Both the position numbers and the translations under genes were made by a program. DNA of 64,000 bases from an uncultured Tateyamaria sp. (GTDB lineage: Bacteria; Pseudomonadota; Alphaproteobacteria; Rhodobacterales; Rhodobacteraceae), in the NCBI RefSeq assembly GCF_947487805.1, contig NZ_CANKXW010000010.1, forward strand, positions 62,001 through 126,000. The letters are read 5' to 3'. Shown one piece after another: positions 8,307-64,000 of this stretch; position 1 is the first letter of the stretch; every line of letters begins with the position of its first letter. Under the pieces are notes generated by a model, which was not told the origin of the DNA, did not search any database, and was given only the letters and a program-made list of their open reading frames with translations.

Positions 8307-8380
8307 CTCTTATTCTTCCTTGATGGACTTCTTTATCACACGCACTGGTTGGCGTTCGGGTGTATATAGGAAGCCTTACG

Positions 8381-8400
8381 TCTAAACTAACCAGTTCAGA
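8381..8400. promoter_or_regulatory. Operator-like palindrome upstream of the RND operon
   Basis: TCTAAACTAACCAGTTCAGA is an inverted repeat (TCTAAACT/AGTTCAGA, 7 of 8 pairs). It lies in the 251-bp divergent region between the efflux operon and the yfgM-like gene. TetR-family repressors often use such sites upstream of RND operons. No regulator gene is adjacent, so the assignment is inference. Confidence 0.45.
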
Positions 8401-8557
8401 TTACATTTTTTGAGACTTTTTCGCAATGACGCCCAATTGACGCAGGCAGGGGCCTGTGCGGCGGGCCTTGGCTTGGCCGCTTTGGCAGGATAAGACAAGC
8501 GCGAAAACAAGGGTGAGGCGGGTGAAACCTGCCGCAATTTCCAGGGGAGCACGGGGC

Positions 8558-9229: not shown

Positions 9230-9240
9230 GGGCTGCACCG

Positions 9241-10578
9241 ATGACACACACCCGCACCCGCGCAGGTATTGGTCTGTGTATCCTGTCGATTGGCGTTTTG
9301 ACGGCCTGCGCCGAGCGTGAGTTGATCCTGCCGGGCAAGCGCGAGCCAATCACCGCCGTGCTGAGCAACCCGGCACCCGAAGCCGCGGCGCAGGCCGTGG
9401 CCGACACCGCGCGCAGCATCCAACTGCCCGCGCCAGTGACAAATGCCGATGCCGCGCAAAGCCCCGGATCGCCTGCGTTCCGCACGGTGCACCCGGCACT
9501 GTCATCCGCGCTGACCCCGATCTTTGCCGCCAATATCGGTGAGGGCGACAGCCGCAAGCACCGCATCGTGGCCGATCCGGTCGTGGCGGGCGGCATCATC
9601 TACACCCTGGACGCCGAGACGCTGGTGACGGCCACATCCACCTCCGGCACGCTGGTCTGGCAGCGCGATGTGCGCCCCGACGGGGCGGACGAGGGCGACG
9701 GCACCGGCGGCGGCCTCGCGGTTGCGGACGGTGTTCTTTATGCGTCGTCCGGCACCGGGGCGCTGTCGGCGCTCAATGCGGCCACGGGCGCGCTGATCTG
9801 GACGCAGGACCTCGAATCCACCGGGTCCGGACAGCCGACCATTTCGGGCGACCTCGTTTACATCATGGCCGGTGACGACACCGGCTGGGCGCTGGAAAAA
9901 GACACCGGACGCATCGCCTGGCGGGTCAGCGCATCGGAAAGTGCGACCAACGTGCTCGGCGCGCCGGCACCGGTGATCACGGACGATCTGGCGGTGTTCT
10001 CCTTTGGCTCGGGCGAGATGCAGGCGGTGTTCCGCCGCGGCGGTCTGCGCCGCTGGGACGCGTCGGTTCTGGGTGAGCGCAAGGGCCGGGCATTGTCCAA
10101 GGTTGATGACGTCACCGGCCATCCCTTTGCCGCAGATGGCGTGATCTATGCGGGCAACCAGTCCGGGCGCACGGTCGCGATCTCCGCCACCAGCGGCGCG
10201 CGCATCTGGACCGCGAACGAAGGCGCGATTGATTCCGTCCTGCCCGTGGGCGGCAGCGTGTTCCTTGTCAGCGACCGCAACGAATTGCTGCGTCTCGACG
10301 CCAGCGACGGCAGCCGCATCTGGGGCACGGCCCTGCCGAACTTTGTCAAGTCCAAGCCGCTGCGCCAGTCCGAAGTCTTTGCCCATCACGGGCCGGTTCT
10401 GGCGGGCGGACGCCTCTATGTGGCGTCCTCCGACGGTGTTTTGCGCAGCTTTGATCCGGCGACCGGCAACCTGACGGGCACGACCGAGATCCCCGGCGGT
10501 GCCTCCACCGCGCCGGTGGTGGCGGGTGGCACGCTCTATGTCGTGACGCGCAAAGGGCAGCTTGTCGCCTATCGCTGA
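9241..10578 (+). CDS. BamB-like PQQ/beta-propeller lipoprotein
   Basis: A 445-aa lipoprotein with signal peptide GIGLCILSIGVLTAC; the lipobox is LTAC. Repeated propeller blades carry motifs such as VYALNAATGALIWTQDL-type strands (for example SALNAATGALIW, LEKDTGRIAWRV and FDPATGNLTG). By family this is the BAM-complex beta-propeller that helps insert outer-membrane proteins. ATG at 9241 is preceded by GAGGG at 9228-9232 with 8-nt spacing; an alternative ATG at 9226 overlaps the upstream stop. It sits between yfgM-like and der, the usual bamB position. Confidence 0.85.
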   Translation: MTHTRTRAGIGLCILSIGVLTACAERELILPGKREPITAVLSNPAPEAAAQAVADTARSIQLPAPVTNADAAQSPGSPAFRTVHPALSSALTPIFAANIGEGDSRKHRIVADPVVAGGIIYTLDAETLVTATSTSGTLVWQRDVRPDGADEGDGTGGGLAVADGVLYASSGTGALSALNAATGALIWTQDLESTGSGQPTISGDLVYIMAGDDTGWALEKDTGRIAWRVSASESATNVLGAPAPVITDDLAVFSFGSGEMQAVFRRGGLRRWDASVLGERKGRALSKVDDVTGHPFAADGVIYAGNQSGRTVAISATSGARIWTANEGAIDSVLPVGGSVFLVSDRNELLRLDASDGSRIWGTALPNFVKSKPLRQSEVFAHHGPVLAGGRLYVASSDGVLRSFDPATGNLTGTTEIPGGASTAPVVAGGTLYVVTRKGQLVAYR

Positions 10579-10609
10579 CGCGCCCCTGCAACGATCAGTC
10601 CTTTTCGCG

Positions 10610-10637
10610 GGCGCACATATGGTCTATGTGCGCCTTT
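10610..10637 (+). terminator. Hairpin between bamB-like gene and der
   Basis: A perfect 10-bp stem GGCGCACATA/TATGTGCGCC with a 5-nt loop is followed by only three T residues. It is a weak terminator or attenuator ahead of der. Confidence 0.45.
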
Positions 10638-10662
10638 CGATATTTGGATTGCAGACCCTGCC

Positions 10663-12114
10663 ATGACCCTGACCCTCGCCATTGTTGGCCGCCCCAATGT
10701 GGGCAAGTCGACCCTGTTCAACCGCCTTGTGGGCAAGCGCCTTGCGCTGGTCGATGACCAGCCGGGTGTCACGCGCGACCTGCGCGAAGGTGCCGGGCGG
10801 CTGGCCGATCTGCGCTTTACCGTGATCGACACCGCGGGGCTTGAGGAAGCGACGGATGACAGCCTGCAAGGCCGCATGCGCCGTTTGACCGAACGCGCGG
10901 TGGACATGGCTGATGTGTGCCTCTTCATGATCGACGCGCGCACCGGGGTCACGCCCACCGACGAGGTGTTTGCCGACATCCTGCGCAAGCGGGCCGATCA
11001 CGTGCTGCTGGCCGCCAACAAGGGCGAAGGGGCCGCCGCCGATGCTGGCGTGCTCGAGGCATTTTCGTTGGGTCTGGGCGAGCCGATCCGCATGTCGGCA
11101 GAGCACGGCGAGGGGCTGAACGACCTTTATGCACAGCTGCAACCGCTGGCCGACCTGCACGCCGAAAAGGCGCAGGACGACGCGCCCGAAGTGGATGTGG
11201 AAATTGACGAGGACGACCCTGACTACGTCCCGCAACCGACCAACGCCAAGCCCTTGCAGGTGGCCGTCGTGGGCCGCCCCAATGCGGGCAAATCCACGCT
11301 GATCAACCAGATCGTGGGCGAGGATCGCCTGCTGACCGGCCCCGAGGCCGGGATCACCCGCGACGCGATTTCCCTGCGCACCGACTGGAACGGCACGCCC
11401 ATGCGAATCTTTGACACCGCCGGTATGCGCAAACGTGCCAAGGTGCAGGAAAAGCTGGAGAAACTCAGCGTCAGCGACGGGTTGCGCGCGGTGAAATTCG
11501 CGGAGGTGGTCGTGGTGCTGCTGGATGCTGCGATCCCGTTTGAACAGCAGGACCTGCGCATCGCCGACCTGGCCGAACGCGAGGGGCGCGCGGTGGTGGT
11601 CGCGATCAACAAGTGGGACATCGAGGACGACAAGCAGGCCAAGCTGCGCGACCTCAAGGAAAGCTTTGAGCGGCTCTTGCCACAATTGCGCGGCGCGCCG
11701 CTGATCACCGTGTCGGCCAAGACGGGCCGGGGCATCGACCGGCTGCATGATGCGATCATGCGCGCCTACGATGTCTGGAACCGCCGGGTGACGACCGCGC
11801 AGCTGAACCGCTGGCTGACCGGTATGCTCGAGGCGCACCCGCCCCCCGCGCCGCAGGGCAAGCGGATCAAGCTGCGCTATATGACGCAGGCCAAGACGCG
11901 CCCCCCCGGTTTCGTCGTGATGTGTTCGCAGCCCGACAAGGTGCCGGAGAGCTATAATCGCTATCTGGTCAATGGCTTACGGCTCGACTTTGACATGCCG
12001 GGCACGCCCATCCGTCTCTATATGCGGGGCCAAAATGACGCGAATCCCTACAAGGGCCGCAAGAAGGCCGGGCCGTCGAAACTGCGCAAGCACACCGAGG
12101 GGCGGCGCAGCTAG
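10663..12114 (+). CDS. der: Ribosome biogenesis GTPase Der (EngA)
   Basis: A 483-aa double GTPase acting in 50S subunit assembly. The first G domain has GRPNVGKS at residues 9-16 and DTAGLEE. The second has GRPNAGKS near 204-211, [10 protein letters not shown] and NKWD. An acidic linker ([16 protein letters not shown]) separates them, and a KH-like domain (about 365-450) precedes a basic tail ([20 protein letters not shown]). Length and domain order are standard. The stop overlaps the convergent TspO-like gene by 4 bp. Confidence 0.97.
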
Positions 12115-52677: not shown

Positions 52678-52767
52678 GGAGGTTTGGCAGAGTGGTCGAA
52701 TGCGGCGGTCTTGAAAACCGTTGGGCGTGAGAGCGTCCCGTGGGTTCGAATCCCACAGCCTCCGCCA
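52678..52767 (+). tRNA. tRNA-Ser (anticodon UGA)
   Basis: A 90-nt class II tRNA with acceptor stem GGAGGTT/AGCCTCC, anticodon stem GCGGT/ACCGT with loop CTTGAAA (anticodon TGA), a long variable arm, TTCGAATC in the T arm and an encoded CCA. Its 3' end is the probable attachment site of the adjacent element. Confidence 0.95.
52754..52767 (+). repeat. Left attachment site (attL) in tRNA-Ser 3' end
   Basis: CACAGCCTCCGCCA, the last 14 nt of the tRNA gene. It matches 58217-58230 at 13 of 14 positions. Confidence 0.6.
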
Positions 52768-52903
52768 CCATCAGCTTTTACTGAAACTCATAAGGCGGCG
52801 CAAAACCCATTAAATCTCAAGTTTTATGAGGTTTAGGGTTGTTGCTCGCCTTTGTTGCGTTTTGTTCAGTTTCGTCTATATTTATTCATACCGAGGTATA
52901 GAT

Positions 52904-52915
52904 TGTGGTATAAAT
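52904..52915 (+). repeat. 12-bp direct repeat near left end (candidate integrase arm site)
   Basis: TGTGGTATAAAT, just before and at the integrase start. An identical copy is at 58147-58158, 60 bp inside the right end. Such repeats inside both ends fit integrase arm-binding sites. Confidence 0.45.
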
Positions 52916-54107
52916 GGCGGCGCTGGGCGGTAAGCTGACAAAGAGGCTGGTGGAGAACTTGGGGCCGGGGCGTCACGGCGACGGGTCAGGCCTCTATCTT
53001 GTTGTGGACCCATCAGGCGCGCGCCGCTGGATTGTCCGTGTCACAGTCAAAGGACAGAAAAACCGAAAGGGTGCACCTCTGCGCACCGATTTTGGCTTGG
53101 GCGGTGCGGATGTCGTCACGTTGAACGCAGCCCGCGAGCGGGCCTTGGAATATCGGCGCATGGCGAAATCGGGCCTCAACCCCCGCTTCAATGCGCGCCA
53201 AGAGGTGCCGACCTTCGAAGAACTCAGTCAGCAAGTCCATATCGAACGCCTGCCCACATGGAAGAACGCCAAGCACGGCCAGCAATGGCTTAACACCTTG
53301 CGTGATTATGCTTTTACCAAAATCGGGCGGATGCCTGTGGATAGCATCGGCCAGCCAGAAGTGCTGATGTGCCTCGCTCCCATCTGGACTGACAAACACG
53401 AAACCGCAAAACGCCTCGCCCAGCGCATCAAAACAGTGCTGGACGTGGCTAAGTCCAAGGGTTTCCGCGAAGGCGAGAACCCGGTCACGGCGGTGCGCGA
53501 GGCTAAAGTTCTGCCAACGGTGAAAGCCAAAGTGAAGCATCACGATGCGATGCCGTGGCAAGACGTGCCAGCCTTCTATTCGGAATTGAGCAAGCGCAGC
53601 GCGGTTGCGGCCAAGGCCCTGCAATTCACTATCCTAACCGCATGTCGCACGTCCGAGGTGCTGGAAGCCCGTTGGCCTGAGGTGGACTTCGAGGCGCGTG
53701 TCTGGACCATCCCAGCAGAGCGTATGAAAGCGGGCGAGGAACACCGCGTTCCCCTGACCAATGAAATGCTGGCGATACTGGAACCGCTCAAGGCGATGGC
53801 GTCAGAGTTTGTCTTTGAAGGCCAGAAACGCCACCAGCCGCTAAGCAATATGTCGATGCTGATGCTTCTGCGACGGATGGGGCGGGATGCCTACACCGTG
53901 CACGGGTTCCGCAGCACGTTCCGAGATTGGGCCTCAGAGGCTGCTGGAGCGCCGCGTGAGGTGGCCGAGGCCGCTTTGGCGCATCAGGTCGGCTCTGAGG
54001 TGGAACGGGCCTATGCGCGCTCAGATGTGTTGGAACGGCGTAGAATTCTGGCGTGCGATTGGTGTGTGTTCGTTGCCGATGTCAGTTACATACAAGAGGT
54101 CATTTAG
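52914..54107 (+). CDS. P4-type tyrosine integrase
   Basis: A 397-aa site-specific recombinase. The N-terminal arm-binding domain (LTKRLVENLGPGRHGDGSGLYLVVDPSGARRWIVR as DUF4102-like blocks) is followed by a core-binding domain (about 100-200) and a catalytic domain with Arg245 (TACRTSEVLEARW), His330-x-x-Arg333 (VHGFRSTFRDWAS), His357 (ALAHQVG) and Tyr367 (ERAYARSDVLERRR). All key residues are present, so it is probably active. It points away from the tRNA, and the next gene starts on the base after its stop. Confidence 0.95.
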   Translation: MAALGGKLTKRLVENLGPGRHGDGSGLYLVVDPSGARRWIVRVTVKGQKNRKGAPLRTDFGLGGADVVTLNAARERALEYRRMAKSGLNPRFNARQEVPTFEELSQQVHIERLPTWKNAKHGQQWLNTLRDYAFTKIGRMPVDSIGQPEVLMCLAPIWTDKHETAKRLAQRIKTVLDVAKSKGFREGENPVTAVREAKVLPTVKAKVKHHDAMPWQDVPAFYSELSKRSAVAAKALQFTILTACRTSEVLEARWPEVDFEARVWTIPAERMKAGEEHRVPLTNEMLAILEPLKAMASEFVFEGQKRHQPLSNMSMLMLLRRMGRDAYTVHGFRSTFRDWASEAAGAPREVAEAALAHQVGSEVERAYARSDVLERRRILACDWCVFVADVSYIQEVI

Positions 54108-55019
54108 GTGTTTGCACCGGTCGGTTACACAGACGTACGCAGCATTATGGCGACGCTAATCAGAGGTTTAGACGAAGAGAATGGGCTGTACTTTCCGTCG
54201 CTTGAGCACATCGAAGTTAAATATCTGTCTTGGCTCGCTTGGCGGTACGGCGAGTTCGACTTTATAGAACAAACAGTGTTCGAAACTGCACTAATACATG
54301 GGCTGTTTCTTTGTTCGCCGGATGGAAAGGCTGTCAAAATTTCGGTAAACCCAGCGGCGCTAACGCAAGCCTCCGCTATCGACCTTTACGAAGATGACGA
54401 AAGCTTTTTTGCACTCAAGGAACGGTTGATAACCGGAGTGCCTGTTAGCAAGGGAACACAGCAAGACGAAAGTACAGACCCATGGGCCAAACATAGGACC
54501 GGAGGCTATCGTTCCGTGCCGATGGTTTATTCCCGATCCGACTACATTGTGCGCCTCACTAACCACGATGAGTATTTGAAGCGTTTGGATAACTCAGGGT
54601 TCCATGTCCTAGCAAATTATCCGATGCTGTTTGGCGATGTTGTAGAAAACTGGCGACCATTCGAAGGCTGGTCCATTTGCGTTTTGGATTCCTGCACAAA
54701 AGAGTTTTCGATCGACGCCATGCGGCCCAAGATTCATTACACAATATTCTCAGCGATTTGGGACAATGCTGACGAAATGTTTGCCCATTTGTTTGAACCA
54801 ACCGAACGAAAGCCAAATGTGCTGGGCAAGGTCGCATCGGAGACTAGGGCGCTTCAATTGGCTGAGGGCTTGCTAACAAGCGAAAGCTACAGGTTTTTTA
54901 CTTTGGATAGACTGAGAAAAGACATCGTTGTCGATTTGGGCGAGCGCGCATGGAGACGGGTCGTTGACCAGTTGCGTCCAAATTTCCCGTTTATCTCAAA
55001 ACCTGGTCGGAAGTCTTGA
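54108..55019 (+). CDS. Unrecognised protein coupled to the integrase
   Basis: A 303-aa soluble-looking protein read from GTG at 54108, with AGAGG at 54095-54099 (8-nt spacing). It directly follows the integrase stop, so it is probably co-translated. There are no signal or membrane segments. The N-terminal half is acidic and aromatic-rich; the C-terminal part (KVASETRALQLAEGLLTSESYRF, RLRKDIVVDLGERAWRRVVDQL) is helical and could bind DNA. Base composition is clearly lower in GC than the chromosome. I do not recognise a family. It could be a cargo or defence gene, but that is speculation. Confidence 0.7.
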   Translation: MFAPVGYTDVRSIMATLIRGLDEENGLYFPSLEHIEVKYLSWLAWRYGEFDFIEQTVFETALIHGLFLCSPDGKAVKISVNPAALTQASAIDLYEDDESFFALKERLITGVPVSKGTQQDESTDPWAKHRTGGYRSVPMVYSRSDYIVRLTNHDEYLKRLDNSGFHVLANYPMLFGDVVENWRPFEGWSICVLDSCTKEFSIDAMRPKIHYTIFSAIWDNADEMFAHLFEPTERKPNVLGKVASETRALQLAEGLLTSESYRFFTLDRLRKDIVVDLGERAWRRVVDQLRPNFPFISKPGRKS

Positions 55020-55116
55020 CGGCGTAATGATACACTTTTTTTTATGACGCCTATTTGCGGACAAAAGCTAAGGTAAATTTCAGTCATCGCAACCAACCCA
55101 AAGAGGGAATTTGCCG

Positions 55117-55329
55117 ATGGCAGCAATCTACGACCAAGACCGCATCTACTTCCCCGAAGACCCTGAACTCCGTATTCTGGGCAGCGTGGAAAAACTAGCC
55201 CAATGGCGGCACCGCAATCGCGGGCCAGCCTTTCTGCGCATCGGGCGGCGCATCGGGTATCACGGCACCGATCTAAATGCCTACCTCTCCGCCCAGCGCA
55301 TCGACCCAAACTCAAATGAGGCCGCATAG
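55117..55329 (+). CDS. AlpA-like HTH/excisionase-type protein
   Basis: A 70-aa protein with MAAIYDQDRIYFPEDPE followed by LGSVEKLAQWRHRNRGPAFLRIGRRIGYHGTDLNAYLSAQRI (motif given in parts). The 'P(A/K)F.R.GRR..Y...DL..YL' pattern is the MerR-like winged HTH seen in AlpA/Xis proteins of P4-type elements. It probably controls integration or excision. GAGGGA lies 8 nt before ATG at 55117. An A+T-rich gap upstream likely holds its promoter. Confidence 0.75.
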   Translation: MAAIYDQDRIYFPEDPELRILGSVEKLAQWRHRNRGPAFLRIGRRIGYHGTDLNAYLSAQRIDPNSNEAA

Positions 55330-55331
55330 TG

Positions 55332-55367
55332 AAAAACCCCAACTCGTCTGAGCGGGTCGGGGTTTTT
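55332..55367 (+). terminator. Intrinsic terminator after the AlpA-like gene
   Basis: Stem AAAAACCCC (55332-55340) with GGGGTTTTT (55359-55367). It begins 3 bp after the stop, and its 3' arm supplies the T run. It argues against the open frame at 55329-55520 being a gene. Confidence 0.85.
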
Positions 55368-55512
55368 CGAGTGACAGAGACTGCCACCGTGACAAGTCCA
55401 GTTTCTGCCACGCGATGCCCGGACCCGGCAAGGGGAAACCGCCAAAGGTTCTTCCTGTCACCCGTCACACACGCGGTTGAACCCCTCCGCATATTCAAAG
55501 GACGCATCGACC
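55368..55512. other. GTGAC/GTCAC-rich spacer, possible origin or operator region
   Basis: Copies of GTGAC and its complement GTCAC occur at 55371, 55389, 55457 and 55465 in direct and inverted orientation, between the terminator and the next gene. More copies lie at the end of the 55891 gene (near 56284, 56320 and 56372). They could be iteron-like sites for a small DNA-binding protein of the element. Confidence 0.35.
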
Positions 55513-55809
55513 ATGTCTAACGATTGGTACAGCAAAACATCCCAAGTCTATTGGACGTGCAAGGCGCTTCTGGAGGGGCGCACCATCACACACATGGATG
55601 AGATTGGCGAAACACGTGGTTGGCGTTTGGGGGCGATTATTCATCGGCTGCGCCGCCACTATGAATGGCCCATCGAAACCGAGTATCGCGGCCCCGAACG
55701 CATTGCGCACTACAGCCTGTCCGCAACGCGTAAGCGGCAAAGCCTCAAATGGCCGAGGTCTGCCAAACGCCTTGGCCCGGACGATGATACCGGGGGCGAA
55801 CATGGCTAA
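55513..55809 (+). CDS. Small putative winged-helix protein
   Basis: A 98-aa protein starting MSNDWYSKTSQVYWTCKAL. The sequence EGRTITHMDEIGETRGWRLGAIIHRLRRHYEWPIETEYRGPERIAHYSL (read as consecutive motifs) looks like a compact winged helix, with an HTH and a basic wing; the pattern is seen in small phage- and element-encoded proteins. Rare family, function unknown. Probable operon with the following gene, 81 bp away. Confidence 0.65.
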   Translation: MSNDWYSKTSQVYWTCKALLEGRTITHMDEIGETRGWRLGAIIHRLRRHYEWPIETEYRGPERIAHYSLSATRKRQSLKWPRSAKRLGPDDDTGGEHG

Positions 55810-55890
55810 TCCTGGAGCAACAATCGGGGGGCGGTTTTGCCGCCCCACCATTCGCGCGCGCGCGCGTGAGGGTCACGTTGGGGTCTGCCT

Positions 55891-56379
55891 ATGACGGATC
55901 GAACCTATAAGCGGAAAAAGCGCGGCACAGGGCGTCATGTGCAGTTGTCAGAGGCGCTTCAATCAACCGAGGCATGGGCAACGCTCAAACCCGGCCCGAG
56001 AGCGCTATACGTCGAACTCAAGCGCCGCTATCGCGGCAACAATAACGGGCGGCTGGTCCTGAGCCACAGAGATGCGGCCAAGGCTCTGTCAGTGCATCGC
56101 AACACCGTTGGGGCATGGTTCACTGAACTGGAGCGGCGCGGCCTAATCTACATGGTGCGTGGCGCGTTCCTTGGGCCGTCTGGTGTAGGGGAGGCACCAC
56201 ATTGGGCATTGGCTGAATTGCCAACCGCTGATGGGCAGTCTGCCAACTGGGCGTTCAGGTCATGGCGGGAAAATCAGAAACCCGTCACAGAAAACCGGAC
56301 GCGCCGGCACAGGGATTGTGACGGTCACGCGGTTTCGGCTGGCTCTGAGAACTTTGGCGTCCTGAAAATTGTGACGTGA
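55891..56379 (+). CDS. Putative HTH replication/regulatory protein of the element
   Basis: A 162-aa basic protein. The central region TLKPGPRALYVELKRRYRG, LSHRDAAKALSVHRNTVGAWF and TELERRGLIYMVRG has a winged-HTH pattern like that of small element proteins that bind an origin or operator. No primase, helicase or nuclease motif is visible. GTGAC motifs occur near its end and upstream. A GGGGCGG/CCGCCCC hairpin and a (CG)7 run lie just before its start. Confidence 0.6.
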   Translation: MTDRTYKRKKRGTGRHVQLSEALQSTEAWATLKPGPRALYVELKRRYRGNNNGRLVLSHRDAAKALSVHRNTVGAWFTELERRGLIYMVRGAFLGPSGVGEAPHWALAELPTADGQSANWAFRSWRENQKPVTENRTRRHRDCDGHAVSAGSENFGVLKIVT

Positions 56380-56532
56380 GGCTGATTTATTTAATGCCAC
56401 CGCAGCACAGTTTTTGGGCCATATATACATCTAGCCATAGTGTGATGTGCCGACGTAGCTGGCGCGTTTGGATGCAGTAGATCTGCTAGTCTATGCTAAG
56501 CTCAAACAGGGCTTTCATGTGAGGAACATTCA

Positions 56533-56784
56533 ATGCGTGTTTTGGTTGGACTGTTGCTTTGCGCATCGCCCGTCTCCGCAAACTCATACGTCTACGAGTG
56601 TCGGGGCGAACCCGCCTATCTGGGCGCGAGCATAGATAAGTCGGGTCGGCCCTGCAAATTGGTCACTGTTCCGCGTGACCACGCAGGCGAATTTCGCAAG
56701 ATAGAATCAGAGGCAGGCAAGCAGCATAAAGCGCGGCGGGCAAAAGAGCGTTGGGAACAGTTCTTGGAACAACATGGCGAGTAG
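56533..56784 (+). CDS. Small secreted protein of unknown function
   Basis: An 83-aa protein with a signal peptide (MRVLVGLLLCASPVSANS) and a good ribosome site (GAGGAACATTCA). The mature part begins YVYECRGEPAYLG and has two cysteines (ECRG and RPCKL), then a charged helical tail (KQHKARRAKERWEQFLEQHG). The pattern resembles DUF4124-like periplasmic proteins, but the match is not firm. Confidence 0.6.
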   Translation: MRVLVGLLLCASPVSANSYVYECRGEPAYLGASIDKSGRPCKLVTVPRDHAGEFRKIESEAGKQHKARRAKERWEQFLEQHGE

Positions 56785-56924
56785 ATTGCCTTTGCGCGGT
56801 CAGAGCAAAAAACGGGTTTAGCGATATTCGTTGACGGGGCCGTCGGTTCCCTATGGGAGTGTTCCTAGAGATCGGCCCCCCCCCATCACCCTAAAGTTTC
56901 GGCCCAAATTGAGAGGTTAGCCAA

Positions 56925-57503
56925 TTGGTTTCGAAGGCCACGGTCGAAGCGCACCATCAGTTGTGCATCTTTACCATGCGACGTTCCGGCGTTCTGCATG
57001 ATGGTTACACGACCAACTGGGTTTGGCGAAATGCGCAAACGCTGGAGGAAACCGGACGCATGGCGATGCGGGTGAGTGCCTCTGCCGTGCATCTCAGCTA
57101 TCGCCTCCGCTGGGGCATGGGCGATTGGGAAAGCATCAGCGACACCATTTTTCTCAGCATTACCCAGCCAGAAAAGGGCGGTGTGCGATGGTGGTTTGAG
57201 TGTCCCGGTTGCCACGCGCGCCGTGCCAAGCTGTATCTGAGCACCTATTTCCGGTGCCGTTCGTGTCTCGGTCTTTGCTATTCCAGCCAATTGGAGCACA
57301 CCCGTGACAGAGATTTGCGAAGGTTCTTTAAGCGTCGGCAGTCGCTGGGCGTTTTTGGCGGCATTTGCGAGCCGTTCCCAGCGAAGCCAAAGTGGATGCG
57401 CTGGGCAACTTATCATCAGCTACATGCGCAAGACTGCCGAGACATTACGCGCATCGACGCGCACACGATCAAGTTGCTAGAGCGAGTAGGCGAAATTTAC
57501 TAG
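56925..57503 (+). CDS. Zinc-ribbon protein of mobile elements
   Basis: A 192-aa protein read from TTG at 56925, because GAGAGG lies 8 nt upstream; an ATG at 56976 would give 175 aa. Four cysteines in FECPGCHARRAKLYL and YFRCRSCLGLCYSSQ form a zinc ribbon (Cys93, Cys96, Cys111, Cys114 from the TTG). It is flanked by aromatic beta-rich sequence. Proteins of this shape occur as uncharacterised genes in prophages and islands. Role unknown; possibly nucleic-acid binding. Confidence 0.7.
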   Translation: MVSKATVEAHHQLCIFTMRRSGVLHDGYTTNWVWRNAQTLEETGRMAMRVSASAVHLSYRLRWGMGDWESISDTIFLSITQPEKGGVRWWFECPGCHARRAKLYLSTYFRCRSCLGLCYSSQLEHTRDRDLRRFFKRRQSLGVFGGICEPFPAKPKWMRWATYHQLHAQDCRDITRIDAHTIKLLERVGEIY

Positions 57504-57521
57504 CGCATACCATTCAAGTGC

Positions 57522-58001
57522 TTAGCCCTCTTCGTCATGAGCCTGCGCGGTCTTGGCAAGAAACTCAATTGCAAACCGCTTCGCGCCTTCCAAAGCCTGA
57601 ACGTTGAAGTTTTGACCGACGACGTAAGAGGTATGCGACGTGACTGACACCTCTGTGAAGCCATCAGTGCCACGCACATTCGCAGGCATTCGGAAGTCGA
57701 AGATAATCACCCCTGAACACACGCCGTTGGTCAGCCGTTCGCCTAATACGGTAACCTCAACCATCGATTTCAAAGTCACGCCCCTGCCAATCACCTCAAA
57801 ACCACCTATGTCTAGTTGGTCGGTAAGATAGGTTCGAACCTCTCCAATGTTGGTCCAGCAACCGTTTATTGCTTTGTCATGTATGTCGATGCGCATTGGA
57901 TTGACGGTTTCGTATTTGATGACGTCTTCAACGCCTATCCATTGAGAGAACCCGGGGCTTGCCCAAAGAAGCATACCCGCGCAAAGAACGCCAAAACGCA
58001 T
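57522..58001 (-). CDS. Secreted hypothetical protein
   Basis: A 159-aa protein with a signal peptide (MRFGVLCAGMLLWASPGFS) and GGAG 8 nt before the start. The mature part is beta-rich with two cysteines (INGCWTNIGE and NGVCSGVIIF). It is the only element gene on the minus strand and lies near the right end. No family recognised. Confidence 0.6.
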   Translation of the reverse strand: MRFGVLCAGMLLWASPGFSQWIGVEDVIKYETVNPMRIDIHDKAINGCWTNIGEVRTYLTDQLDIGGFEVIGRGVTLKSMVEVTVLGERLTNGVCSGVIIFDFRMPANVRGTDGFTEVSVTSHTSYVVGQNFNVQALEGAKRFAIEFLAKTAQAHDEEG

Positions 58002-58146
58002 AAAAGCTCTCCTATCGCTTGCCCGCAGTTAAGTTATCGCAAGAGTAGGCTGCAATGTAATTTTGAGAGACTTGAAGCTTAGAGGTTGTATGCTCCACAC
58101 TCTAGTGTCGCTAAAGTCGAGAGGAATCGACTGGCGGGGTATGAAG

Positions 58147-58158
58147 TGTGGTATAAAT
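58147..58158 (+). repeat. 12-bp direct repeat near right end of the element
   Basis: TGTGGTATAAAT, identical to 52904-52915. The surrounding 100 bp are the most A+T-rich of the region. Confidence 0.45.
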
Positions 58159-58216
58159 ACTATCGTTTGATAAATTCATACGTAAAAACAAGTGATTGGA
58201 AGATTTGTTTGGCTGA

Positions 58217-58230
58217 CACAGCATCCGCCA
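58217..58230 (+). repeat. Probable right attachment site (attR)
   Basis: CACAGCATCCGCCA, same orientation as the tRNA 3' end and 13 of 14 identical. It marks the return to core composition, 52 bp before the fumarylacetoacetase-family start. Confidence 0.5.
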
Positions 58231-58282
58231 TTTGCCCTGTCAGGCCGGAATTGGCGCCGCGCGCCCGTGTTCAGGAGCTGAT

Positions 58283-58984
58283 ATGACCGACAACGCACCC
58301 GATTATGCCTTTGCCCCCGCACCTGTGGTCAGCCTGCCGATTGAGGGGCACGCCGAGCGGTTTCCGGTGCGGCGTATTTACTGCGTCGGGCGCAATTATG
58401 CGGCCCATGCGGTCGAGATGGGGCATGATCCGGACAAGGAGCCGCCGTTCTTTTTCCAGAAACCCGCGGACACGATTGTGCAGCCGGGTGCGGATTTCCC
58501 GTATCCCGCACAGTCGAGCGATGTGCATTTCGAGATGGAGCATGTGGTGGCCATTGGCACCGGCGGGGCGGACATTCCAGTTGAGACGGCGCTGGATCAC
58601 GTTTTTGGCTATGCTGCGGGCCTCGACATGACGCGGCGCGATCTGCAAGGCGCGGCCAAGAAGATGGGTCGCCCGTGGGAAGTGGGCAAGGCGTTCGAGA
58701 GCTCTGCGCCGATGTCGGCCATTCGCACCGTCGCTGATATCGGGCACCCCGCGCGCGGGGCCGTGCGCCTGTGGGTGAATGGAGAGATGCGGCAGGACGG
58801 TGATCTGGATCAGCTGATTTGGAAAACCCAGGAGGTGATTGCGCATTTGTCGGCGCTGTTCACGCTGGCGCCCGGTGACCTGATCATGACGGGCACACCT
58901 GCGGGTGTGGGGCCGGTGGCGCGCGGTGACGAGATGGTGGGCGAGGTCGAGGGGATCGGGCGGGTCGAACTGCGCGTGGTCTAG
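58283..58984 (+). CDS. Fumarylacetoacetate hydrolase family protein
   Basis: A 233-aa FAH-fold enzyme, ATG at 58283 after AGGAG. RRIYCVGRNYAAHAVEMGHDP, PFFFQKPADTIV and SDVHFEMEHVVAIG (metal ligands Glu), then GYAAGLDMTRRDLQ and LFTLAPGDLIMTGTPAGVGPV are FAHD1/fumarylpyruvate hydrolase-type signatures. Beside the hpa genes it may supply the decarboxylase or isomerase step usually covered by two-domain HpaG. That is inference. It ends 4 bp into the convergent hpaR gene. Confidence 0.85.
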   Translation: MTDNAPDYAFAPAPVVSLPIEGHAERFPVRRIYCVGRNYAAHAVEMGHDPDKEPPFFFQKPADTIVQPGADFPYPAQSSDVHFEMEHVVAIGTGGADIPVETALDHVFGYAAGLDMTRRDLQGAAKKMGRPWEVGKAFESSAPMSAIRTVADIGHPARGAVRLWVNGEMRQDGDLDQLIWKTQEVIAHLSALFTLAPGDLIMTGTPAGVGPVARGDEMVGEVEGIGRVELRVV

Positions 58985-59418
58985 TCGCGCGGTCCGGGGT
59001 CGAGCCTGCCCAGTAGATCCAGCAGGGTCTCGTAGTTTTCTGTGCCCAGCGTGGCGCGGAACCCGTCCACGATCTGGCCCGCGCGATGGCGGTGGTCGTC
59101 GATGATCTTTTGCCCGGCGGGGGCCAGCGCGATCATCTGGCGACGCCGGTCCACGGTGTCGCGGGTCTGGGTGATCAGCCCCTTGTCGCGCATCGCACTT
59201 GCGATCCGGGTCAGGCTGGGAAAGAGCAGGCTGGCGCGGTTGGCCAGCGTTTTGGTGTCCATGGACCCGGCCTCGTCCAGCACCCGCAGCACGCGCCATT
59301 GCTGTTCCGTGATGCCGGTTTCCGACAGCATCTCGCGGATGGGGGCCATAACCCCCTCGCGGGCGCGGATCAGCGCGATGGGCAGGGATCTGGAGGTCGA
59401 GGGCAGCGGGTCGGTCAT
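58981..59418 (-). CDS. hpaR: MarR-family regulator HpaR
   Basis: A 145-aa winged-helix repressor. LIRAREGVMAPIREMLSETGITEQQWRVLRVLDEAG and LTRIASAMRDKGLITQTRDTVDRRRQMIALAPAG (recognition helix and wing) match HpaR, which controls homoprotocatechuate meta-cleavage operons and responds to the substrate. It is divergent from hpaE with two operator-like repeats between. Confidence 0.9.
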   Translation of the reverse strand: MTDPLPSTSRSLPIALIRAREGVMAPIREMLSETGITEQQWRVLRVLDEAGSMDTKTLANRASLLFPSLTRIASAMRDKGLITQTRDTVDRRRQMIALAPAGQKIIDDHRHRAGQIVDGFRATLGTENYETLLDLLGRLDPGPRD

Positions 59419-59490
59419 GCGGGCGCGCCTGTGTCAAAGAGGTCCTGGCGGTGCTGCCAAGGTACACTTGACAATGCAAGCAGGGTTTAC

Positions 59491-59517
59491 TTAACCTGTC
59501 AATAATTAACATGTTAA
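59491..59517. promoter_or_regulatory. Candidate HpaR operator (two 12-bp sites)
   Basis: TTAACCTGTCAA (59491-59502) and TTAACATGTTAA (59506-59517) are copies of TTAAC-n-TGT-n-AA at 15-bp spacing. The second is a perfect palindrome. They sit in the hpaR-hpaE divergent promoter region, where a MarR-family dimer would bind. Confidence 0.65.
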
Positions 59518-59551
59518 CGATACTGCCCCGCGGCAGATCCTGGGGGCCGAG

Positions 59552-61063
59552 ATGGCAACACTGAACGACAATCTGGAAAAGCTGGACGGGTTTCTGGCGC
59601 GGTTTCGCGCGCACGGGATCAAGAACCGCATTGCCGGCGCGGACCGGGACGGCGGGGGCGGTGTCTTTGCCAGTGTCTCGCCCGTGGACGAAAGCCATAT
59701 CTGCGATGTGGCGCGCGGCGACGCGGGCGATATCGATGCGGCCGCACAGGCCGCACACGCCGCCTTTGCCGAGTGGCGCGACATGCCCGCGACCCAACGC
59801 CGCGCCATACTGATCCGTATCGCCGAAGGGATCGAGGCGCGGGCCGAGGAAATTGCGCTGTGCGAATGCTGGGACACCGGGCAGGCCTATAAATTCATGT
59901 CCAAGGCCGCCCTGCGCGGGGCAGAGAATTTCCGCTATTTCGCCGATCAGGTGGTGCAGGCCCGCGACGGCCAGCACCTGAAGTCTCCCACCTTGATGAA
60001 CATCACCACCCGCGTGCCGATTGGCCCGGTGGGCGTCATCACGCCGTGGAACACGCCCTTCATGCTCTCCACCTGGAAAATCGCGCCGGCGCTGGCCGCG
60101 GGCTGCACGGTGGTGCACAAACCCGCCGAAGCCTCGCCGCTGACCGCGCGGCTGCTGGTCGAGATCGCCGAAGACGCGGGCCTGCCCCCCGGTGTGCTGA
60201 ACACCGTGAATGGCTTTGGCGAGGAGGCGGGCAAGGCGCTGTGCGAACATCCCCTTATCCGCGCCATCGCCTTTGTCGGAGAAAGCCGGACCGGCAGCCT
60301 GATCACCAAACAGGGGGCCGATACGCTGAAACGCAACCATCTGGAGCTGGGTGGCAAGAACCCGGTCATCGTCTTTGACGACGCGGAACTGGACCGGGCG
60401 CTCGATGCGGTGATCTTCATGATCTATTCGATCAACGGCGAACGGTGCACCTCGTCCTCGCGCCTGTTGGTGCAGGACACGATCCGCGCAGCGTTCGAGG
60501 CCCGTCTGGTTGAGCGGGTCAATGCGATCCGCGTCGGCCATCCGCTGGACCCCAAGACGGAAATCGGGCCGCTGATTTCGCAGGAGCATTACGACAAGGT
60601 CACCGGCTATTTCGACACCGCGAAGGCGGACGGTGCAACGATCGCCGCAGGCGGCGCGCCTGCGGGGGATACCGGGTATTTTGTCAAGCCGACCCTGTTC
60701 ACCGATGCCACCAACGACATGCGCATCGCGCGCGAGGAGATTTTTGGCCCTGTGCTGACCTCGATCCCCTTTGCAACCGAGGACGAGGCGCTGTCCATCG
60801 CCAACGACACACCGTACGGTCTGACGGGATATGTCTGGACCAACGACCTGACACGTGCGCTGCGCTTTACCGACCGGCTGGAAGCGGGGATGATCTGGGT
60901 CAATTCCGAAAACGTGCGGCACCTGCCCACGCCCTTTGGCGGGGTCAAGGCCAGCGGGATCGGGCGCGATGGCGGCGACTGGTCCTTTGACTTCTACATG
61001 GAGCAAAAGCACATCGGCCTGGCCACGGGTCAGCACAAGATCACCAAGCTCGGAGCGCTGTGA
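59552..61063 (+). CDS. hpaE: 5-carboxymethyl-2-hydroxymuconate semialdehyde dehydrogenase
   Basis: A 503-aa NAD-dependent aldehyde dehydrogenase of the homoprotocatechuate meta pathway, oxidising the HpaD product to 5-carboxymethyl-2-hydroxymuconate. Motifs: Asn167 in TPWNTPF, Glu265 in LELGGKNPV and the nucleophile Cys299 in NGERCTSSSRL. C-terminal SENVRHLPTPFGGVKASGIG is typical of HpaE. First gene of the operon; it abuts hpaD (TGATG). Confidence 0.93.
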   Translation: MATLNDNLEKLDGFLARFRAHGIKNRIAGADRDGGGGVFASVSPVDESHICDVARGDAGDIDAAAQAAHAAFAEWRDMPATQRRAILIRIAEGIEARAEEIALCECWDTGQAYKFMSKAALRGAENFRYFADQVVQARDGQHLKSPTLMNITTRVPIGPVGVITPWNTPFMLSTWKIAPALAAGCTVVHKPAEASPLTARLLVEIAEDAGLPPGVLNTVNGFGEEAGKALCEHPLIRAIAFVGESRTGSLITKQGADTLKRNHLELGGKNPVIVFDDAELDRALDAVIFMIYSINGERCTSSSRLLVQDTIRAAFEARLVERVNAIRVGHPLDPKTEIGPLISQEHYDKVTGYFDTAKADGATIAAGGAPAGDTGYFVKPTLFTDATNDMRIAREEIFGPVLTSIPFATEDEALSIANDTPYGLTGYVWTNDLTRALRFTDRLEAGMIWVNSENVRHLPTPFGGVKASGIGRDGGDWSFDFYMEQKHIGLATGQHKITKLGAL

Positions 61064-62046
61064 TGCCTGTACCTGCACCGAACCTGTACCCCGATTTCAA
61101 CACCATCCGGCTGAGTCATGTGTGCCTGAACGTGGCGGATCTGGCCGCATCGCGGACGTTTTACACCGATATTCTTGGGATGCAGGTGACCGACGAGACC
61201 GACAGCCACATCTATCTGCGCGCAATGGAGGAACGGGGCCACCACTGCATCATCCTGCAACGCTCGGACCAGCCGGGCACGGTCGAGGTGATGGGGTTCA
61301 AGACCTTTGACGAGGGCGATTTGGACCGGGCGGCGGCCTATTTCGAGGGCAAGGGGCGGCCCACATCCTGGGTCGACCGGCCCTATCAGGGGCGCACATT
61401 GCTGACCTCGGACAATATGGGCATTCCGCTTGAGTTCTATCACCGGATGGACCGCCTGCCGCCGATCCATCAGCAATACGCGCTTTATCGCGGGGTCAAG
61501 CCGCTGCGGATCGACCATTTCAACTGCTTTTCCACGGATGTGGACGCCTCGGTCGCGTTTTACAGCGATTGGGGGTTCCGGGTGACGGAGTACACCGAGG
61601 ATGAGGACAGCAAGCGGCTGTGGGCCGCGTGGATGCACCGCAAGGGCGGGGTGCATGACATGGCCTTTACCAACGGGACGGGACCGCGGATGCACCATGT
61701 GGCGTTCTGGGTGCCGACACCGCTGAACATCATTGACCTGCTCGATCTGATGGCGACCACCGGCTATGTGGATCATATCGAGCGGGGGCCGGGGCGGCAT
61801 GGGATTTCCAACGCGTTCTTCCTTTATATCCTCGACCCGGACGGGCACCGGATCGAGATTTATTGCTCGGATTACCAGACGGTCGATCCGGATCTTGAGC
61901 CGATCAAGTGGGATCTCAAGGATCCGCAGCGCCAGACGTTGTGGGGTGCGCCCGCGCCGCGCAGCTGGTTCGAGAACGGATCGCCCTTTGTGGGCGTGAC
62001 GCCGCGCGCGTCGGATCTGGCCGCAAGCCCGATCATCGCGCCATGA
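61063..62046 (+). CDS. hpaD: 3,4-dihydroxyphenylacetate 2,3-dioxygenase
   Basis: A 327-aa two-domain extradiol dioxygenase of the vicinal oxygen chelate type. The 2-His-1-carboxylate metal site is visible as His152 (LRIDHFNCF), His211 or His212 (PRMHHVAFW) and Glu265 (GHRIEIY). It opens the ring of homoprotocatechuate. The N-terminal domain (about 12-130) is a non-catalytic VOC repeat. ATG at 61063 overlaps the hpaE stop; GTG at 61060 is a one-codon-longer alternative. Confidence 0.93.
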   Translation: MPVPAPNLYPDFNTIRLSHVCLNVADLAASRTFYTDILGMQVTDETDSHIYLRAMEERGHHCIILQRSDQPGTVEVMGFKTFDEGDLDRAAAYFEGKGRPTSWVDRPYQGRTLLTSDNMGIPLEFYHRMDRLPPIHQQYALYRGVKPLRIDHFNCFSTDVDASVAFYSDWGFRVTEYTEDEDSKRLWAAWMHRKGGVHDMAFTNGTGPRMHHVAFWVPTPLNIIDLLDLMATTGYVDHIERGPGRHGISNAFFLYILDPDGHRIEIYCSDYQTVDPDLEPIKWDLKDPQRQTLWGAPAPRSWFENGSPFVGVTPRASDLAASPIIAP

Positions 62047-62063
62047 CCAGCCAGGGAGAGACC

Positions 62064-62918
62064 ATGCGATTTGCCACATTCTCGGCGCAGGGGCGCACGC
62101 ATTACGGGGCCGTGACGGATGCGGGCCTGATCGCGCTGGATGGCGATTTCCCGGACTGGCCGACCTTGTGCTCTGTCATCCGCGGTGGCGGGTTGGCACA
62201 GTTGGAGCAGGCCGCAGTGGGGCGCGACGTGACCCATACAGAGGTCGCGTACGAGATGGTGCTGCCCGATGCGCAGCGGATCCTGTGCGTCGGGGTCAAT
62301 TTCCCTGACCGCAATGCCGAGTACAAGGACGGCAGCGCGCAGCCGAAATATATGTCGCTTTTCCCGCGCTTTGCCAGCGGCTTTACCGGCCACAACCGCC
62401 CGCTGATCCGCCCGCCGGAAAACCACACGCTGGACTACGAGGGCGAGGTGGCCGTGATCATCGGCAAGGCCGGGCGGCGGATCGCGCCCGAGCACGCCTA
62501 TGACCATATCGCGGCGCTGACCATCTGCAACGAAGGCACCATCCGCGACTGGGTCCGGCACGCCAAGTTCAACGTGACCCAAGGCAAGAACTGGGACCGG
62601 TCGGCGGCCATGGGGCCTTGGATCGTGCCGTTCCAGGAGGCCGCACAGCTGGACGAGGCGCGCATTCTGACCCGCGTGAACGGCGAGGTGCGGCAGGACG
62701 ATGTGCTGCGCCGGATGATGTTCCCGGTGCGCGCCGAGATCGCCTATATCTCGACATTCATGACGCTTCAGCCCGGTGATATCATCGTGACCGGCACGCC
62801 AACGGGGGCCGGGGCGCGGTTTGATCCGCCCCGCTATCTCGCGCCCGGCGATGTGGTAGAGGTCGAGGTGAACGGCATCGGCACCCTGCGCAACACCGTG
62901 GAGGACGAAGTGCTATGA
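62064..62918 (+). CDS. hpaG: HpaG-like fumarylacetoacetase-family decarboxylase/isomerase
   Basis: A 284-aa FAH-family protein. ILCVGVNFPDRNAEYKDG, LDYEGEVAVIIGKAGRRI (metal ligands), GTIRDWVRHAKFNVTQGKNWDRSAAMGPW and LQPGDIIVTGTPTGAGARF are family blocks. By operon position between hpaD and hpaH it should be the 5-oxopent-3-ene-1,2,5-tricarboxylate decarboxylase/isomerase step. E. coli HpaG has two FAH repeats; this has one. GGGAGAG precedes ATG at 62064; ATG 62043 overlaps the hpaD stop. Confidence 0.8.
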   Translation: MRFATFSAQGRTHYGAVTDAGLIALDGDFPDWPTLCSVIRGGGLAQLEQAAVGRDVTHTEVAYEMVLPDAQRILCVGVNFPDRNAEYKDGSAQPKYMSLFPRFASGFTGHNRPLIRPPENHTLDYEGEVAVIIGKAGRRIAPEHAYDHIAALTICNEGTIRDWVRHAKFNVTQGKNWDRSAAMGPWIVPFQEAAQLDEARILTRVNGEVRQDDVLRRMMFPVRAEIAYISTFMTLQPGDIIVTGTPTGAGARFDPPRYLAPGDVVEVEVNGIGTLRNTVEDEVL

Positions 62919-63715
62919 CCCCTGAAGATCACGCAGATGCCGCCGCCCGCCTGCTGGAGGCGGAGGCGACGCGCACCCAGATCGGGCTGCTGTCGCGGGC
63001 GCATCCCGAGATGGGCATGGACGACGCCTATGCCATCCAGTCCGCGATCCTGCGCGCCAAGCTGGCGCAAGGGCGCGACGTGATCGGGTGGAAGATCGGT
63101 CTGACCTCGAAGGCGATGCAATATGCGCTCAACATCGACATCCCCGACAGCGGGATCCTGTTTGACGACATGCTCTTTGCCGATGGCGCGCGGGTGCCAA
63201 AGGGGAGGTTCATCCAGCCCAGGATCGAGGCCGAGATCGCCTTTGTCATGGGCCGTGCACTGGGCGGTGCGGATGTGACGCGGGCGGACGTGATTGCGGC
63301 CACGGATCATGTGGCGCCCTCTCTGGAGATCCTCGACACCCGCATCCTGCGGGCCGATCCGGAGACGGGTGCCACGCGCAACGTCTTTGACACGATCAGC
63401 GACAATGCGGCCAATGCAGGCATCGTGCTGGGCGAGGCGCGGCACGCGGTGGATGCATTCGATCTGCGCTGGGTCGGGGCGATCACCACGCGAAACGGCG
63501 CGGTCGAGGAAACTGGGCTGGGGGCCGGGGTGCTGAACGACCCGGTGGAAAGCGTCGTCTGGCTGGCCCGGCGCATGGCGGAATACGGCCAGAGCATCCA
63601 GCCCGGTCACGTGATCCTGTCGGGCAGCTTTATCCGGCCGGTGGAATGTCCCGCAGGCGCCGAGATCCACGCCGATTTCGGCCCCTTCGGCCATGTCAGC
63701 GTGGCCTTTGACTAG
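62915..63715 (+). CDS. hpaH: 2-oxo-hept-4-ene-1,7-dioate hydratase
   Basis: A 266-aa metal-dependent hydratase, MhpD/HpaH family. Markers: DAYAIQSAILRAKLAQGRDVIGWKIGLTSKAMQYALNID (as family blocks), IQPRIEAEIAFVMGRALGG, and the final SGSFIRPVECPAGAEIHADFGPFGHVSV. It hydrates the 2-hydroxyhepta-2,4-diene-1,7-dioate product. It overlaps hpaG by 4 bp. hpaF and hpaI are not in the window. Confidence 0.92.
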   Translation: MTPEDHADAAARLLEAEATRTQIGLLSRAHPEMGMDDAYAIQSAILRAKLAQGRDVIGWKIGLTSKAMQYALNIDIPDSGILFDDMLFADGARVPKGRFIQPRIEAEIAFVMGRALGGADVTRADVIAATDHVAPSLEILDTRILRADPETGATRNVFDTISDNAANAGIVLGEARHAVDAFDLRWVGAITTRNGAVEETGLGAGVLNDPVESVVWLARRMAEYGQSIQPGHVILSGSFIRPVECPAGAEIHADFGPFGHVSVAFD

Positions 63716-63721
63716 GCCGCG

Positions 63722-64000
63722 TTAGCCGTAGGTGTCGCGCAGCGCGTTTTTCTGCACCTTGCCCATCGTGTTGCGGGGCAATTCGGACGCCACCTCGTAA
63801 CGGCGGGGGTGTTTGAACCGCGCCAGACGCGACCGTACGGATTCCGACAGGCTGTCGGTGTCGATCTGGCGGCCCGCATCGGGCACCACGACGGCCACGA
63901 TCGCCTCGCCGAAATCGGCGTCGGGGATGCCGATCACGGCACTTTCCGACACGCCGTCGATATCGTTCAGCACGTCTTCGATTTCCTTGGGATAGACGTT
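63722..64000 (-). CDS. MatB-like acyl-CoA synthetase, 3' fragment
   Basis: The last 92 residues of an AMP-binding enzyme; the rest lies beyond the right edge. NVYPKEIEDVLNDIDGVSESAVIGIPD is the start of the C-terminal domain, and KHPRRYEVASELPRNTMGKVQKNALRDTYG contains the catalytic lysine (NTMGKVQK). This ending is typical of malonyl-CoA synthetase (MatB). Convergent with hpaH, 6 bp between stops. Confidence 0.75.
   Translation of the reverse strand, partial: NVYPKEIEDVLNDIDGVSESAVIGIPDADFGEAIVAVVVPDAGRQIDTDSLSESVRSRLARFKHPRRYEVASELPRNTMGKVQKNALRDTYG

Follow-up and report, generated by a model that had tools for sequence, protein, structure and literature searches.

The best-studied phage satellites are those of enterobacteria, vibrios and Gram-positive cocci. 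The phage-inducible chromosomal minimalist islands (PICMI) of Vibrionaceae, with a prototype of 6.1 kb, carry a gene, iolg, that overlaps the integrase gene (int); no genome was reported to hold more than one of them, and headful packaging of multimers was suggested (PMC10803314). Gram-negative phage-inducible chromosomal islands (PICI) comprise an integrase, an alpA-type regulator and a replication initiator followed by the origin (PMC6092414). Here we describe an integrative element of ∼5.5 kb at a tRNA-Ser(UGA) gene of an uncultured Tateyamaria sp., located in a 64,000-nucleotide stretch of contig NZ_CANKXW010000010.1 (the window, from whose first letter all positions are counted). It is one member of a family whose elements follow a usual order of genes and share repeats of the tRNA end and a conserved array resembling an origin. 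Judged from its sequence, it is probably a minimal PICI/PICMI-like phage satellite in which an initiator and iterons, as a candidate origin, replace the primase. This reading is favored because of the gene order, the AlpA-like gene, the initiator, the origin-like array and a relative that carries capsid genes (loci and genomes are cited below by L and G numbers).

An earlier reading of the sequence (the original prediction) had placed here a tRNA-Ser(UGA) gene, a complete integrase, two repeats, lower guanine-plus-cytosine (GC) content and eight open reading frames (ORFs), and all were found where it had put them. Its view that a compact element has integrated at tRNA-Ser and has no recognized phage structural or conjugation genes agrees with the family searches, in which no such gene was recognized among the eight proteins (Pfam, PHROGs and NCBIfam). 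A self-transmissible element was rejected, as no conjugation gene was found, and so was an ordinary full prophage, as no structural gene was found in 5.5 kb. PADLOC returned no defense model for the eight proteins, and apart from the integrase none of them attains a Pfam or NCBIfam cut-off.

The five leading genes, all on the + strand, follow the usual order of the family: int, an int-overlapping gene, an AlpA-like gene, a gene for a small winged-helix protein and g5. The tyrosine integrase g1 (52914–54107, 397 aa) is complete, with arm-binding, central and catalytic domains over the cut-off (Arm-DNA-bind_3, PF13356; Phage_int_M, PF22022; Phage_integrase, PF00589) and with the catalytic residues R245, H330, R333, H357 and Y367 all kept. 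Contiguous with it, in the position of PICMI iolg, lies g2 (54108–55019; 303 aa from GTG, 290 from an ATG at 54147), which has no family match in Pfam, PHROGs, PADLOC or NCBIfam and has homologs in 2 of 295 genomes of the same bacterial family, one being its own and the other a weak match (E = 1.1e-4). The product of g3 (55111–55329, 72 aa) is a small AlpA/excisionase-like helix-turn-helix (HTH) protein. Of the two families by which AlpA is recognized in PICMI (PF05930 or PF12728), it matches PF12728 (HTH_17) at E = 9.3e-5 and 23.1 bits, under the curated cut-off of 27; homologs 44%–86% identical follow int in L128, L133, L149, L209 and L210. The small winged-helix-like protein g4 (55513–55809, 98 aa; homologs in 8 of 36 fetched loci) gave a model with a pLDDT of 73 and no significant match in a PDB search; it has a weak match to PHROG 4973 (E = 2.4e-4), none in phage records and no relative in the viral contigs.

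Across the family, 21 of 33 elements have an ORF of 100 aa or longer that is contiguous with or overlaps int; in 17 of the 33 the overlap with the int stop is 1–17 nt. Of 330 points drawn at random on the opposite strand, 87 were touched by such an ORF and 17 overlapped. These int-adjoining genes fall mostly in no shared cluster, apart from three small related groups. An AlpA-like ORF was recognized, by pattern and eye, in 19 of 27 elements, and where a g4 homolog does not precede g5, a protein similar by eye does so in 15 elements.

This organization resembles that of PICMI in the very small size, in the succession of int, int-overlapping gene, alpA, often a small gene and a replication gene, in the lack of capsid genes and in the variety of gene families at the int-overlap position (PMC10803314). 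The differences from the same description are that the window replication gene is initiator-like and accompanied by iterons, whereas PICMI carry a DUF3987/DUF5906 primase; that the window element sits at tRNA-Ser and PICMI beside fis; and that several related elements can occur in one genome. PICMI membership was rejected on the first two counts: neither primase domain matched any of the eight proteins in Pfam or NCBIfam, and the site is not fis. The window element shares an integrase with Gram-negative PICI and has candidate counterparts of their alpA-type regulator (the AlpA-like g3, with a family match under the cut-off) and of their initiator followed by an origin, and it differs from them in having no primase (pri-rep) and no recognized interference or packaging-redirecting gene (PMC6092414). 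For initiator and origin, the fold and the iteron array agree with the PICI plan, with a weak PDB match. The comparison extends to P4-like satellites. None of the genes that we take to be typical of these (alpha primase-helicase, psu, sid, delta and epsilon) was recognized by Pfam, PHROGs or NCBIfam. A P4-type integrase at a tRNA and an AlpA-like protein are common to both (PMC8628076).

g5 has homologs in 42 of the 295 genomes, including its own (41 of 294 others). For comparison, 36 loci were fetched: one Bradyrhizobium contig and 35 loci that account for 36 of the 49 matches listed for genomes other than the window's own. In 31 of the 36, an integrase gene lies upstream of g5, in the same orientation and at most 4.3 kb away (exceptions: L117, L123, L135, L136 and L036). 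Of the 27 loci that have a tRNA, 21 contain a repeat of the tRNA 3′ end scoring at least 14, compared with 5 of 108 trials with random ends from the same loci. The elements bounded in this way measure 3.8–11.4 kb, 13 of the 21 being under 6 kb, and the tRNAs used across the relatives are those for Ser, Leu, Thr, Ala, Arg, Phe, Lys and Met. No clear second repeat was seen in six loci (L117, L123, L128, L133, L149 and L156). One relative resides on a Tritonibacter megaplasmid, and one genome, G200, holds three elements (L143, L144 and L149). Two of these, L143 and L144, have DNA 87% identical over 1.28 kb though their integrases differ, a sign of module exchange.

The product of g5 (55891–56379, 162 aa) is, by its homologs and fold model, a replication-initiator-like winged-helix protein. 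A PDB search with the model (pLDDT 83) gave no match at E ≤ 0.001; the best, at 1.2e-3, was the N-terminal DNA-binding domain of a plasmid-initiator group, whose entries are presumably those named RepA. It was followed by MepR, a regulator of the MarR type, by a complex of Rep with DNA, by further initiators and, farther down, by DnaD, with initiator chains at template modeling (TM) scores of 0.42–0.55. Against viral models, g5 had 52 matches at E ≤ 0.001, mostly unnamed or HTH, the named ones including replication protein O, lambda GpO and replisome organizer. Weak sequence matches were to HTH_36 and to replication-initiator or helicase-loader PHROGs (E = 0.016–0.08). The predicted fold appears to resemble those of plasmid and phage initiators, the PDB match being weak.

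Initiators of the lambda O and DnaD types have a winged helix, with iterons in or just after their own gene and an A+T-rich stretch adjoining. Similarly, a candidate array lies in and after g5, beside an A+T-rich stretch; unlike those initiators, g5 has no recognizable helicase-loading part, the HTH_36 match being weak. Four iterons were located on the + strand: GTCACAGAAAACCGGAC (56284–56300) and GGCACAGGGATTGTGAC (56306–56322), both by array scan, GTCCTGAAAATTGTGAC (56359–56375), by site profile and array scan, and AGCACAGTTTTTGGGCC (56404–56420), by site profile. The fourth is decayed relative to the family, with mismatches at conserved positions. It is followed by a conserved tail, CATATATACATCTAGCCATAG (56420–56440, +), a candidate unwinding region rich in A+T. 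The aligned site consists of GTCCTnAAAATTGTGACG, ∼25 bases and CGTCACAAAAAnCAGGACATATATACATCTAGCCATAGG, each arm forming an imperfect 17-bp dyad. Around the g5 ends of 35 elements, the 7-mer CGTCACA/TGTGACG, selected after inspection of the data, occurred 41 times against 3.0 expected. At E < 1e-5 the site profile matched 22 loci, of which 8 lay outside the set used to build it; it matched the window array at E = 5.3e-18, the window itself being part of the profile. With a site model (R1), 23 of the 295 genomes gave a match, and in 21 of these g5 lies beside the site; 17 of the 23 had supplied training sequences. Both profile and model were built largely from loci that they later matched.

A dyad score was adopted because the 6-mer statistics of single elements are weak. 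Over 35 elements its mean was 5.8, compared with 3.6 in shuffled sequences and 4.2 in a control stretch of int, and nine elements reached p ≤ 0.05, eight of them in clades where the half-site has other letters. In these other g5 clades the half-sites read GTCACCnnnnnGGTGAC, GTCCTnnnnnnnAGGAC or GGTTCnnnnnnnGAACC, and the array keeps its position, its iterons starting at intervals of ∼22, 32, 22 and 44 bp or of 32, 31 and 45 bp; in L120 both arms are altered together. L127 and L134, also from other-letter clades, were not significant by dyad score, and L127 has one long inverted repeat. Among the 22 clade-A elements the dyad profile peaks at −20, −117 and −141 from the tail, weakly at −65, and also at +6, −14 and −128; because of these last three peaks it supports the array modestly. 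The window array is not significant alone; its support comes from the cross-element profile.

The same g5 and iterons could instead form a regulatory or partition (centromere-like) unit that is no origin, in which case the element would not replicate itself. This is suggested by the fact that g5 is barely more than a winged helix and that many of its PDB matches, such as MepR, are transcription regulators. We regard it as doubtful, since the array lies inside and after the gene with spacings near multiples of the helical turn, the conserved tail is rich in A+T, and the top single PDB match is an initiator domain.

Four viral contigs of IMG/VR (L158–L161) also contain a g5 homolog with five iterons, spaced 22, 33, 32 and 44; L159 and L160 are near-copies of each other in this region. 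Structural genes were scanned in two of the four: L158 carries the small and large terminase subunits and a head-tail adaptor, and L161 a portal and a tape measure gene. The tail word ATCTAGCCAT also follows the iterons of L158. A further viral locus, L211, has a portal gene and g5 with the tail, and the metagenomic contig L157 has g5, an endolysin gene and SSB. In addition, the integrase lineage of the window is located ahead of head genes in a 6.5-kb viral contig (L210:1–6469), in the order tRNA-Ser(GGA), an integrase 78% identical, a 320-aa gene, an AlpA-like gene (53%) and then head-structure genes. Another locus, L209:5756–13038, was observed to have a tRNA-Ser(GCT) between phage genes (endolysin and DNA transfer protein) and an island with an integrase (76%), an AlpA-like gene (44%), a g7 relative and a 1256-aa protein without a Pfam or PHROG match.

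The capsid-carrying relative, L125:2388–9963 in G346, is an element at tRNA-Lys bounded by an exact 51-bp repeat. Its order is int, overlapping gene, g5 with five iterons, head-tail adaptor, large terminase, head closure, HNH, capsid, protease and portal; no tail gene was recognized among the 10 proteins scanned. We take this to be the layout of capsid-forming PICI, with which L125 shares the int-overlap gene, g5, iterons, terminase, portal, protease, capsid, adaptor and HNH. The window element differs from such islands in having no recognized capsid or packaging gene. The name capsid-forming PICI appears in PMC11389934.

The likely course of events can be outlined as follows. From family and position, g1, aided by AlpA-like g3 and perhaps by g2, would excise a circle from tRNA-Ser. 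The iterons at the 3′ end of g5 would then be bound by the g5 protein, which would open the DNA at the adjoining tail, and the circle would replicate with host or helper enzymes. We infer such replication from the fold, from the way the iterons vary between g5 clades and from the presence of the same module in phage contigs. The weakest step is the last, in which a helper phage would package the element; because the element has no packaging gene, the most economical guess is headful filling with multimers, as suggested for PICMI (PMC10803314).

A phage need not be involved if the element is an integrative replicon that excises, is copied in the manner of small plasmids by means of g5 and the iterons, and spreads by transformation, conjugation in trans or gene transfer agents. 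That no gene for heads or packaging was recognized in the window element (Pfam and PHROGs) would fit this, as would the megaplasmid-borne relative in Tritonibacter and a g5 fold that also suits plasmid chains, presumably RepA-type. No relaxase matched among the window proteins in Pfam or NCBIfam (no search for an origin of transfer, oriT, was made), and the g5-iteron module occurs in phage contigs and in the capsid-carrying L125; together with the PICMI-like gene order (PMC10803314), these points make a phage-independent life unlikely. Of the two options in the original prediction, satellite or mobilizable element, the satellite part is favored by gene order, AlpA-like gene, initiator, array and L125, packaging being inferred only.

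Several results weigh against the satellite reading. The best PDB match of g5 misses the threshold of 0.001, MarR-type regulators score about equally, and g5 is short, with no helicase or primase domain found in Pfam, PHROGs or NCBIfam and no match in 50,697 phage records. The window array taken alone has a dyad score of 4 (p = 0.33), and p likewise exceeds 0.05 in 26 of the 35 elements. The site pattern had 0 matches in viral contigs, a 106-base site from L144 found none by blastn among phages and plasmids, the tail pattern gave just 1 viral contig, and no iterons were found after g5 in L157. Two genomes, G217 and G335, have the site without g5; these may be remnants. (In G217, two origin-like copies ∼550 bp apart were seen at L201:7125–7752, with no g5 match nearby.) The relatives with the closest integrases to g1 (80%–84% identical and tRNA-adjoining in L149, L128 and L133) are without a clear second repeat, and longer searches were unhelpful for two of them. 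Finally, with the +1/−2 scoring used on the relatives, the right repeat of the window element scores 11, which is within the chance range (random ends reached at least 12 in 28 of 108 trials), and among the other 19 genomes of the genus there is no clean empty site or junction at 58217–58230.

Such a junction in a relative was one of the two points on which the original prediction could have failed; none is seen because the right flank itself varies. The right end was therefore placed by the repeat and the GC step and not by an empty site. As in tRNA-integrated elements, the integrase is accompanied by a repeat of the tRNA end. The target gene (52678–52767, +, anticodon TGA; ARAGORN) ends in the left copy, CACAGCCTCCGCCA (52754–52767, +), which stops at the tRNA 3′ end; repeats in 21 relatives likewise stop there or 0 to 11 bases beyond. 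The right copy, CACAGCATCCGCCA (58217–58230, +), is identical at 13 of 14 positions and coincides with the GC step, leaving 5,449 bp between the two. GC content is 54.2% in the element, 65.1% in the left flank and 64.4% in the right. Allowing two mismatches, the repeat word, which was picked post hoc, has 4 matches in the window against 1.17 expected.

The surroundings are conserved on one side. The dac-SPOR-tRNA-Ser arrangement is kept in 20 of 20 genomes of the genus, with an unchanged distance from dac to tRNA-Ser(TGA). Downstream of the tRNA, g2–g8 are absent from the other 19 (63 to ∼17,000 bp read per genome, the lengths being 63–790 bp in L072, L077 and L085), and L082 has a portion of a different integrase. 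The case that would have told against the original prediction, genes 54108–58001 kept at this tRNA without the integrase, was encountered in none of the 19. The six catabolic genes to the right of the element are likewise missing from the stretches read. Flanking genes common with 9 of the 19 genomes resume only at ∼73.8–78 kb from the window start, and in L076 the tRNA is directly followed by the equivalent of the gene at ∼76,945–78,300 by the same count; ∼24 kb have therefore accumulated here relative to L076. The excess is made up of the element and the catabolic cluster to its right, which reaches ∼73.5 kb. By eye, this cluster (58232–64000 and on) is one for aromatic-acid catabolism and includes a TRAP transporter along with genes of the fumarylacetoacetase type. 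Most of it was not found at the locus in the 19 genomes, and it is a possible second island.

Might the true element be larger, taking in the cluster to ∼73.4 kb, with 58217–58230 a chance repeat? Most of the cluster is not found at the locus in relatives, the right copy scores within the random-end range, and two 12-mers farther downstream outscore it in the 63 kb searched. We nevertheless consider a larger element very improbable. GC is back at host level from 58.2 kb, and at one mismatch or fewer the repeat word matches only its two copies in the window (0.04 expected). Among the 12 best repeats in the 63 kb, the right copy alone terminates exactly at the tRNA 3′ end, and none beyond it does so. 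In addition, 13 of the 21 bounded relatives are under 6 kb, and G018 has at the same locus, without the element, a 79% homolog of the cluster gene at 63,728–65,215, the one cluster gene for which a relative showed a homolog here. Elsewhere in the window's own genome (G000), further integrase matches were observed in the first bases of contigs C8 and C5 (L003 and L005), and more islands may be hidden in assembly gaps.

Of the remaining genes, g6 and g8 are taken as cargo. g6 (56533–56784, +, 83 aa) has a signal-peptide-like N terminus by eye and no family match in Pfam, PHROGs, PADLOC or NCBIfam; g8 (57522–58001, −, 159 aa), with a signal-peptide-like start by eye, occurs in 5 of the 295 genomes including its own. 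Between them lies g7 (56925–57503, +, 192 aa), by eye a zinc-ribbon protein, found in 9 of 35 elements including the window and in viral contig L209; a g7 relative had no match in phage records. Alignment with seven relatives indicates that g7 is without the N-terminal MGGxGSG part of its family, and a run of nine C (56876–56884) was noted upstream of the shortened start. Both g7 and iteron 4 suggest that this copy may be partly decayed. Whether it has become a remnant, which would be compatible with the other readings, is a separate matter: the mismatches of iteron 4 at conserved positions, the missing g7 N terminus and the imperfect right repeat speak for it, against a complete integrase with its catalytic residues and open g3, g4 and g5 that align over their full length. 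We hold a remnant to be a serious but lesser possibility.

Cargo of the relatives was surveyed in 27 of them, with 109 ORFs listed, 77 of which were taken as one set. For this set PADLOC matched 65 families, the 25 shown being mostly methyltransferase models with one cyclase model, and Pfam and PHROGs matched 37 and 57 families, respectively (25 shown each). In L154, two long ORFs were observed between the element and the tRNA (6084–10930). In size they would suit IMS and DNA polymerase III alpha, to each of which Pfam gave one match among the 77, and they may be cargo or trapped host genes.

In the open-licence literature, which leaves subscription papers mostly outside, there was no account of satellites of this bacterial family with a g5-iteron module. 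The suggestion in the original prediction of an undescribed type accordingly holds in part: the mode of action would be PICI/PICMI-like, and what the literature searched did not describe is the module of initiator and iterons together with its distribution across this bacterial family. By a narrow balance, we favor the view that these elements, over half of which measure less than 6 kb, form a new lineage of satellites of this alphaproteobacterial family, based on an interchangeable cassette of a winged-helix initiator and phased iterons whose letters co-evolve with the initiator. If so, minimal islands would share one cassette with phage contigs and with an island that carries capsid genes, and these elements would be among the smallest satellites with an origin that can be read from sequence. 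The clade-specific changes of letters make recognition between initiator and origin testable, and the iteron array provides a sequence tag for locating such elements without protein annotation. With g5 in 42 and the origin-like site in 23 of 295 genomes, satellites would extend to this alphaproteobacterial family and could account for many “hypothetical” islands at tRNAs.

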